A stretch of 64,000 nucleotides of DNA from Terriglobia bacterium (GTDB lineage Bacteria; Acidobacteriota; Terriglobia; Terriglobales; SCQP01): positions 124,001 to 188,000 of the forward strand of contig JAJPKR010000027.1 in assembly GCA_021323595.1 (NCBI GenBank). Direction: 5' to 3'. The notes under the pieces were generated by a model. It worked only from the letters and a program-made list of their open reading frames with translations, was not told the origin of the DNA and ran no database searches. Of this stretch, positions 46,936 through 51,926 are shown in pieces. Both the position numbers and the translations under genes were made by a program. The first letter of the stretch is position 1, and every line of letters begins with the position of its first letter.

Positions 46936-49707
<2,772 letters not shown>

Positions 49708-49724: not shown

Positions 49725-51260
49725 TTACAGCGTGCCGCCCCCTTCCGGGTTCAGCGGCGGGCGCGGCGCCATATGCGCGTCGATATCGCCCTGATCGGCG
49801 GGGGCGGCCTCTTCCACGCCGCGCTGCTCTTCCGCTTCCAGATCCTGGGCGGTGCGCGTCAGCTCGTCGTCGGGAGCCGGCGCCAGGGGCGGCTCGCCGA
49901 GCTCTTCACTGCTATTGCGCTGGGCCAGCGAACTGGCATCCCCGCCATCGGCTTGCGGCGCGGCTACGCCCGCCACCGCCTCCTCGATGGAAGCTCCAAA
50001 GAAGCGGTTGACGGCGACGAAAATCTGCTCGACGCTCTCCGGACCGATGCCCGGAATTTCCTGTAACTGCTCCGGCGTCATCCCGCCCAACTGCTCGACA
50101 GTGCCGACGCCGGCGTTGGCCAGCGCCTCGCGCACGCTGTCATCCAAGCCGGTGAGGCTGGCCAAAGGCGTCTCGCCGCCGCCGCTCTCACCGACCAACG
50201 CGGCCATTTGCTGCTCGACTTCGCGGCGCTTCTCCTCTTCGCTCTTGATGTCGATCTTCCAGCCGAGCAGCTTGGCCGCCAGCCGCACGTTTTGGCCCTT
50301 CTTGCCGATGGCCAGGGAAAGCTGACTGTCATCCACCACCACCTCGAGCTGGCGGCCTTCGGGGTCGAGCACGGCGACGCGACTGATCTTGGCCGGGCTG
50401 AGGGCGTTGGCGGCGAACTGCACCGGGTCCTCGCTGTATTCGATGATGTCGATCTTTTCCCCGCGCAATTCGCGAATGATGCTTTGCACGCGCATGCCCT
50501 TCATGCCCACGCACGCGCCGACGCAATCCACGTCTTTGTCGCGGGAATACACGGCGATCTTGGTGCGCTCGCCCGGCTCGCGCGCCACCGCCTTGATCAC
50601 CACGGTTCCGTCGTAAATTTCCGGAACCTCGGCTTCGAAGAGTTTCTGCACCAGCGCGGGATCGGCGCGCGAAACCACCACCAGCGGGCCTTTCAGCGCC
50701 TTTTCCACGGCCTTGATGACGACGCGCACGCGCTCGCCCGGCGCAAATACTTCCAAGCGCGACTGCTCGCGCCGCGGCAAGCGCGCTTCCGCGCGGCCCA
50801 AGTCCACGATCACGTCCGAGCCCTCGGCGCGCTTGACGATCACGTTCACGACTTCACCGACGCGGTTGATATATTCGCCGTAGACGGTGTCCCGCTCGGC
50901 TTCGCGGACCTTCTGGAAGATGATCTGCTTGGCGGTTTGCACCGCGATCCGGCCCAGACCTTCGGTGGCCTTCTTGATCTTCAATTCCGCGCCCGGAACA
51001 ACCTTGGGATCGATACGGCGAGCCTCGGCGAGGGAAATCTCCCGCAATGGGTTGGCAACCTCGTCCACCACGAGACGCAAGGCATAGACGTTGATCTCGC
51101 CCGTGTCTTTGTCCAGTTCGGCCTGGAGCTCCTCGTGGGTCTTGTAGTACTTGCGTGTGGCCACCGACATGGCGTCTTCGACCGCGCTCACCACGACCTG
51201 AGGGTCGATCCCCTTGTCGCGGCTGAGTTGCTCGATCTGCTGGTACAGTTGGCTCGCCAT
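49725..51260 (-). CDS. nusA: transcription elongation factor NusA
   Basis: 511 aa. N-terminal RNAP-binding domain (QVVVSAVEDAMSVATRKYYK), S1 domain (YINRVGEVVNVIVKRAEG), two KH domains (DCVGACVGMKGMRVQSIIRE, SLAIGKKGQNVRLAAKLLG) and a helix-hairpin-helix region (TPEQLQEIPGIGPESVEQIF). The last 60 residues are acidic and Pro/Ala-rich. NusA enhances pausing and termination at hairpins; an intrinsic terminator precedes its operon, which allows autoregulation. Confidence 0.97.
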   Translation of the reverse strand: MASQLYQQIEQLSRDKGIDPQVVVSAVEDAMSVATRKYYKTHEELQAELDKDTGEINVYALRLVVDEVANPLREISLAEARRIDPKVVPGAELKIKKATEGLGRIAVQTAKQIIFQKVREAERDTVYGEYINRVGEVVNVIVKRAEGSDVIVDLGRAEARLPRREQSRLEVFAPGERVRVVIKAVEKALKGPLVVVSRADPALVQKLFEAEVPEIYDGTVVIKAVAREPGERTKIAVYSRDKDVDCVGACVGMKGMRVQSIIRELRGEKIDIIEYSEDPVQFAANALSPAKISRVAVLDPEGRQLEVVVDDSQLSLAIGKKGQNVRLAAKLLGWKIDIKSEEEKRREVEQQMAALVGESGGGETPLASLTGLDDSVREALANAGVGTVEQLGGMTPEQLQEIPGIGPESVEQIFVAVNRFFGASIEEAVAGVAAPQADGGDASSLAQRNSSEELGEPPLAPAPDDELTRTAQDLEAEEQRGVEEAAPADQGDIDAHMAPRPPLNPEGGGTL

Positions 51261-51297: not shown

Positions 51298-51810
51298 CTA
51301 CCAAGTGGGCGCCAAATTGGCGCGCTCGACCTCGTCCGGCGCGAAGTCCCAAACCTCACCGCTCTCCGGCTGGCGGATGCGAACGCGATCATCGAACCAG
51401 CCCTCCAGCACCCCGGTCACGCGGCGGCGCGGCCGTCCCGGAGCGGAGCGCAACTGCAGGCGCACCCGTTGCCCGGCAAAGCGCTGGAAGTCCTCGCGCT
51501 TGACCAAGCGCCGCTCTAAACCCGGAGAGGAAACCTCCAAGACATAGGAGATGTCTTCGGGGATGACCTCCTCCGCATCCAACACGGCGCTCAATTGCCG
51601 GCTCACGCTCTCGCAGTCGCCGTGGGTGATGCCGGCCGGCTTGTCCAGGAAGACGCGCAGCAGTCGCTGCCGCCCGCTGCCGACGAAATCCACGTCCACC
51701 ACATCCATGCCCGCAGCCGCCGCAATTTGCTCGGCCAAGCCACGGATGCGCTCCCGCACGGCAGAATCTGCGCCGCCACTCTTGGGGCCGCCGATTCTGG
51801 CCACACTCAT
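51298..51810 (-). CDS. rimP: ribosome maturation factor RimP
   Basis: 170 aa from ATG 51810 (MSVARIGGPKSGGADSAVRE), with GGAGG about ten bases before. A longer in-frame start at 51876 is rejected, because those codons are the leader terminator hairpin. RimP motifs: AGMDVVDVDFVGSGRQRLLR, DCESVSRQLSAVLDAEEVIP, YVLEVSSPGLERRLVK and the SH3-like C-terminal domain (VRIRQPESGEVWDFAPDEVE). It acts in 30S assembly and is first in the nusA-infB operon. Confidence 0.95.
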   Translation of the reverse strand: MSVARIGGPKSGGADSAVRERIRGLAEQIAAAAGMDVVDVDFVGSGRQRLLRVFLDKPAGITHGDCESVSRQLSAVLDAEEVIPEDISYVLEVSSPGLERRLVKREDFQRFAGQRVRLQLRSAPGRPRRRVTGVLEGWFDDRVRIRQPESGEVWDFAPDEVERANLAPTW

Positions 51811-51849
51811 TTCCCACGCCTCCGACGAGAGCGCCAATTCCCGCCCAAC

Positions 51850-51873
51850 AAAAAAGTGGGCTTGCGCCCACTT
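51850..51873 (-). terminator. intrinsic terminator in the rimP-nusA leader
   Basis: On the minus strand AAGTGGGC, a GCAA tetraloop and GCCCACTT form a perfect eight-pair stem that runs into six T residues. It lies 39 bases before the rimP ATG and after the promoter, so it can only act on the operon's own leader: an attenuator. It is the one textbook intrinsic terminator seen in this window. Confidence 0.75.
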
Positions 51874-51890
51874 CACGTTGCGCCAAACAT
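51873..51890 (-). other. five-codon leader ORF before the rimP attenuator
   Basis: ATG TTT GGC GCA ACG TGA encodes MFGAT and ends on the first base of the terminator stem. Its A falls at the expected transcription start, so it would be leaderless. Translation could influence hairpin formation. It may also be chance. Confidence 0.25.
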
Positions 51891-51897
51891 CTCTTCA

Positions 51898-51926
51898 ATC
51901 TTAACGCAGCGGTACATAGCTGGCAA
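51898..51926 (-). promoter_or_regulatory. rimP-nusA-infB operon promoter
   Basis: Minus strand: TTGCCA (51926-51921), a 17-bp spacer and TAAGAT (51903-51898). The start point would be near 51890, about 17 bases before the terminator stem. The -35 matches consensus at five of six bases. Confidence 0.6.

Follow-up and report, generated by a model that had tools for sequence, protein, structure and literature searches.

The leader of the rimP-nusA-infB operon

The window analyzed here is a 64,000-nt stretch of a contig from a Terriglobia bacterium (Acidobacteriota). Its minus strand carries, consecutively, rimP (51298..51810), nusA (49725..51260) and infB, the gene for IF-2 (46936..49707). The last two were assigned with the NCBIfam models TIGR01953 and TIGR00487, respectively; rimP matched the NCBIfam RimP models with scores below the curated cut-offs and Pfam RimP_N with a score above its cut-off. 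The ATG of rimP is at 51810, and a Shine-Dalgarno-like GGAGG lies upstream of it on the same strand (51819..51823).

A consensus scan placed a sigma-70-type promoter on the minus strand at 51898..51926, with the -35 box TTGCCA at 51926-51921, a spacer of 17 nt and the -10 box TAAGAT at 51903-51898. This is the promoter named in an earlier sequence-only reading of the locus. It matches the consensus at 9 of 12 positions, and the 3 kb scanned contained two promoter-like sites compared to 0.3 expected from shuffled sequence. The other site, GTGACA-17-CAGAAT (52110-52082, minus strand), is farther upstream, within the start of a divergent gene, and could add a longer leader.

Between the promoter and rimP is the hairpin GAAGTGGGC-GCAA-GCCCACTTT (51853..51874, minus strand), which was recognized by terminator scan, RNA folding and conservation. 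It has nine pairs around an AGTGGGC/GCCCACT core, a GCAA loop and a run of six T (51855-51850). The T-run is followed by GTTG, and this U-tract region (51846..51855, minus strand) was delimited from the sequence and from the tail pattern in relatives. The stem, loop and six T of the terminator described in the sequence-only reading are all present, but its count of eight pairs plus six T used some T twice, as the first two or three T of the tract also pair with GAA/AA. The spacing of about 17 nt given there between promoter and terminator holds when counted from a transcription start inferred at 51891; from the -10 box the distance is 23 nt. About 40 nt separate the hairpin from the rimP ATG.

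The predicted RNA fold of the hairpin has a free energy of -14.8 kcal/mol (z -5.6), and none of 200 shuffled sequences folded as well. Folding the 81-nt leader retained the hairpin, with a possible enclosing helix that is statistically weak. The hairpin is the sole terminator-like site in the 3 kb scanned, yet the crude scan is not significant by itself (1 found, 2.5 expected from shuffles). We regard the terminator as more than a chance occurrence because it is conserved in relatives, as described below; the scan alone would be insufficient. A search of the window against Rfam release 15 gave no match at the gathering score and no relevant match up to an E value of 10.

Conservation and specificity of the hairpin

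Alignment of the leader across related genomes had been suggested as a check in the sequence-only reading, and comparison with relatives showed the terminator to be conserved. From an even sample of 149 genomes of the phylum Acidobacteriota, 126 had a RimP match, and the 330 nt before the Pfam match was scanned in each. An intrinsic terminator was found upstream of rimP in 117 of the 126. Scanning the reverse strand of these regions gave 22, five shuffled sets gave 6, 6, 8, 10 and 12, and a background set of 349 windows gave 18. The scan found no terminator in the remaining 9 of the 126 regions. The stem was of the type GTGGG..CCCAC or a one-base variant of it in 107 of the 117, and 70 of the 117 had the strict form GTGGGC..GCCCAC. 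Other stems, such as GCGGCC..GGCCGC and GTGAGG..CCTCAC, were present in ten, with the T-run retained; one of the ten (G157) is a weak match that may be due to chance. Stem types that differ while the T-run is retained are the pattern expected of a hairpin under constraint. Two genomes of the sample (G101 and G111; loci L254 and L255) retain a GGTGGGC..GCCCACC hairpin and have TTGATTT in place of the T-run.

Promoter-like sites (at least 8 of 12 matches) were sought in the 108 leaders, of the 117 with a terminator, that had at least 60 nt of sequence upstream. In 79 of them such a site was present in the 110 nt preceding the hairpin, where the mean for shuffled sequence was 13.4. Just downstream of the hairpin, none of 102 stretches contained such a site. 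The hairpin therefore lies between promoter and gene in most genomes, as it does in the window. A promoter downstream of the hairpin, which the sequence-only reading had named in advance as an observation that would refute attenuation, thus found no support in the sample.

Several features suggest that selection acts on the RNA. The stem is kept through paired base changes, both in the phylum sample and in the Chloroflexota-centered nusA leaders described below. In the phylum sample the loop ranges from 3 to 8 nt in length. The bases that flank the GTGGG core form an A-T, G-C, G-T or C-G pair in 106 of 106 cases. The loop sequence differs between groups. GNRA loops were present at 39 of 40 Acidobacteria loci, 0 of 27 Nitrospira loci and 0 of 8 Deltaproteobacteria loci, lists that were picked by the taxon of the record from the first 80 loci listed; in the phylum-wide sample 10 of 48 tetraloops were GNRA. 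In most leaders the T-run is interrupted, with T resuming after one other base. Breaks of this kind in the distal part of the U-tract characterize terminators that depend on NusA; here they were recorded for these leaders only.

Comparison of the Acidobacteria leaders drew attention to other elements near the hairpin. Many of them (loci L036-L114) contain an element resembling GGYCGMAC 10-13 nt before the hairpin, of which GGCGCAAC (51877..51884, minus strand) is the copy in the window. In the 40-locus Acidobacteria list there were 28 matches to GGYCGMAC at 10-13 nt, and the rest of the 60-nt stretch scanned yielded 4. The element was considered as a NusA site; it was not consistently present in 16 rRNA leaders from 15 related genomes, and we assign it no such role. 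The upstream element could also pair with GTTGG after the U-tract to form an outer helix around the terminator (L114, L106, L069, L019 and the window, 51884-51840, minus strand). Single folds had looked favorable. When real partners were compared to mismatched ones, 481 of 2000 permutations were as good in the Acidobacteria set, which is not significant; 8 of 2000 were as good in the phylum sample and 6 of 2000 for L116-L155, both modest results. The composition control for the outer helix was weak, and a few rows of these folds, permutations and controls were misoriented, the motif being palindromic. At 6 of 9 loci tested (L082, L104, L110, L117, L063 and L096), ARAGORN predicted a tRNA-Gly(CCC) gene immediately before the hairpin and in the same orientation, so that at these loci transcription of the tRNA may also terminate at the hairpin.

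The motif is specific to its position. In the genome of the window, the only exact match to GTGGGCN4GCCCACTTT is the site in the rimP leader, where the opposite strand of the palindrome also matches with one mismatch. Sixty related genomes contained the strict motif at 58 places, two palindromic duplicates having been set aside. Fifty-three of these, in 53 of the 60 genomes, were within 800 bases of rimP, and the five found elsewhere equal the five obtained with a reversed-pattern control, that is, chance level. A longer pattern, AGTGGGCN4GCCCACTTTTTTG, was scanned over a collection of 84,980 species and matched at least 120 loci, including Acidobacteria, Nitrospira, Nitrospinae, Deltaproteobacteria, Alphaproteobacteria and one gammaproteobacterium among those listed. 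Among the matches listed, 113 of 120 were followed by a RimP ORF within 200 nt. Of the other seven, three are cut off no more than 163 nt from the motif (L068, L093 and L150), one has RimP 271 nt past it (L138), one has nusA (L119) and two have neither (L048 and L083). A plain terminator sequence used genome-wide is ruled out by this specificity for rimP or nusA.

Placement before nusA in genomes without rimP

At L119, from a member of the Dehalococcoidia (Chloroflexota), the promoter and hairpin are followed directly by nusA, and the genome has no RimP match. We drew a sample of 101 genomes around this genome (G192) from its phylum. RimP was matched in 12 of the 101 and NusA in 95, and the upstream region of nusA was read in 90 of the 95 (85 without rimP and 5 with RimP). 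Among the 85 rimP-less genomes, GTGGG..CCCAC followed by T preceded nusA in 72, and 71 of the upstream regions scored as terminators, compared to 16 on the reverse strand. A tighter pattern was found in 45 of the 101 genomes, with all but 5 places at nusA (control, 3). None of the five RimP-bearing genomes had the GTGGG..CCCAC core before rimP; in two of them another GC-rich hairpin with a T-run was seen by eye.

With a hairpin directly before nusA in genomes that lack rimP, NusA (or IF2) becomes a better candidate than RimP for the controlled product. The Chloroflexota sample argues that the hairpin can do without RimP and that control would be exerted on nusA or, with infB, on the operon. 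This placement is new here; in a search that covered few subscription papers, titles and abstract openings on the leader, on NusA autoregulation and on Chloroflexi nusA leaders contained no report of it.

The rimP-less Acidobacteriota gave a different result. There were 23 genomes without a RimP_N match among the 149. Eighteen genomes without RimP had NusA, and 14 were read; one was left out with nusA at a contig end (G077) and three with masked sequence (L297, L301 and L310). In the 14, nusA had other surroundings. The hairpin preceded nusA in 0 of the 14 and a generic terminator in 1 of 14, and the motif occurred genome-wide at 7 places, chance level compared to a control of at most 8. So nusA is not always preceded by a GTGGG..CCCAC hairpin, and there is no universal rule. 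These lineages seem to have lost rimP and the hairpin together.

Across the groups, the hairpin precedes rimP-nusA in Acidobacteriota, Nitrospira and Deltaproteobacteria, whereas most genomes of the Chloroflexota sample have it before nusA without rimP. We tentatively raise the possibility, without favoring it, that it is an ancient control element of nusA and not of rimP, placed before whichever gene opens the nusA operon, and that NusA, perhaps with the GGYCGMAC element in Acidobacteria, would read its sequence and not only its shape.

Models for the hairpin and known leaders

We consider it likely that the hairpin acts as an intrinsic terminator early in the 5' leader of rimP-nusA-infB and that NusA-stimulated termination there provides negative feedback. 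RNA polymerase would start near 51891 and make roughly 42 nt, whereupon the GTGGGC/GCCCAC hairpin would form and a fraction of the polymerases would terminate at the U-tract, with the remainder reading through into rimP. If NusA stimulates termination at this hairpin, more NusA would give less transcription of the operon, a negative feedback that would require neither an antiterminator nor a leader peptide. An attenuator with possible NusA feedback had been the central proposal of the sequence-only reading. The proposal is supported by family membership, by the conserved position and motif, and by published work on Bacillus subtilis and Streptococcus agalactiae; termination in the Terriglobia source organism and the role of NusA as its sensor are both what we infer. 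A terminator of such stability might work without NusA.

The hairpin could instead stop a constant share of transcripts without regulation and so simply reduce expression of the operon, NusA having no special part. The short leader has no evident alternative structure or sensor domain, the hairpin is stable by itself and some lineages substitute other stems, as this explanation would allow. We think it unlikely, however, for a plain terminator would not usually have its stem letters conserved, or be found almost exclusively before rimP or nusA in different phyla, and there is evidence for NusA feedback in B. subtilis (PMC12288461). The near-invariant stem letters exceed the needs of termination alone, and generic NusA action does not explain them. 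Both arms hardly change from phylum to phylum whereas the loop is variable, a second conserved element lies just upstream in Acidobacteria, and in two genomes the stem persists beside a poor U-tract, so that the GTGGGC/GCCCAC hairpin might be the site of a sequence-specific protein (RimP, IF2, the KH domains of NusA or another), with termination only part of its role. Against this are the lineages in which the stem letters are replaced (GCGGCC/GGCCGC and GTGAGG/CCTCAC) and, for RimP as the reader, the rimP-less sample, and we rate a protein site of this kind as quite improbable.

At the DNA level, AAGTGGGC-N4-GCCCACTT is a palindrome adjoining the promoter and might bind a repressor, as an operator that overlaps the beginning of the transcribed region. 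A spacer that varies from 3 to 8 nt, a one-sided T-run, GNRA loops, paired changes and a varying distance to the -10 box all argue against an operator, which we consider very improbable. Little can be said for control of hairpin formation by translation. A five-codon ORF, MFGAT (ATG TTT GGC GCA ACG TGA; 51873..51890, minus strand), does exist, with its ATG near the position inferred for the transcription start, as the sequence-only reading had noted in suggesting that ribosome occupancy might modulate the hairpin. The proposed ribosome or leader-peptide role found no support: 0 of 12 other members of the same family and 0 of 40 Acidobacteria leaders had an ATG ORF that ended at the hairpin, and neither a regulatory codon run nor an alternative hairpin was evident. 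The ORF is probably fortuitous, a leader-peptide attenuator of the trp/his type is ruled out by the failure of the leader ORF to be conserved, and regulation through its translation is scarcely credible.

NusA-responsive termination, the reading we prefer, has a simple rationale. The amount of NusA, a general transcription factor, has to stay in range, and a terminator that NusA strengthens would be a very simple self-setting device. Autoregulation of B. subtilis nusA, with no antiterminator, was reportedly described by Mondal et al. in 2016. According to a 2025 review, B. subtilis NusA autoregulates through stimulated termination in its own leader (PMC12288461). As here, the leader of that nusA operon contains an intrinsic terminator; NusA dependence was shown there by experiment, whereas for the Terriglobia window we infer it (PMC12288461). 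In S. agalactiae, RNA-seq of the gbs0413-0418 leader identified a terminated short RNA ending 31 nt from the start (PMC4448216). That leader terminator also belongs to a rimP-nusA-infB operon, and the likeness to the window is one of operon and terminator position (PMC4448216). Escherichia coli NusA regulates its own operon (PMC6511841), and when we read the E. coli sequence we found a CTGGGC-TTTA-GGCCC hairpin with seven T just before rimP. Unlike the window, the E. coli metY-rimP region has two tandem terminators, t1 and t2, and an upstream tRNA gene, metY (PMC6511841).

The closest likeness is to the rimP-leader named by Naville and Gautheret in 2010, in whose survey no gene had a predicted attenuator ahead of it more often than rimP (PMC2965389). 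They described it in a majority of species, naming Firmicutes and Gammaproteobacteria, gave its stem as GGGc..gCCC and proposed that it is probably read by NusA (PMC2965389). The window shares the rimP-nusA-infB operon, the stem (here GTGGGC-GCAA-GCCCAC) and the U-stretch, and the distance of its hairpin from the gene, about 40 nt, is inside the published 4-130 nt (PMC2965389). The published leader has no visible antiterminator (PMC2965389); in the window the one candidate for a larger structure is the statistically weak enclosing helix. The rimP-leader section of that paper makes no mention of placement before nusA in rimP-less genomes or of the GGYCGMAC element seen here (PMC2965389). Whether RimP or NusA reads the stem was left open in 2010 (PMC2965389); the rimP-less Chloroflexota sample is a natural experiment that argues against RimP and makes the question testable. 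By its sequence, the element in the window is a typical rimP-leader terminator and so of a known kind.
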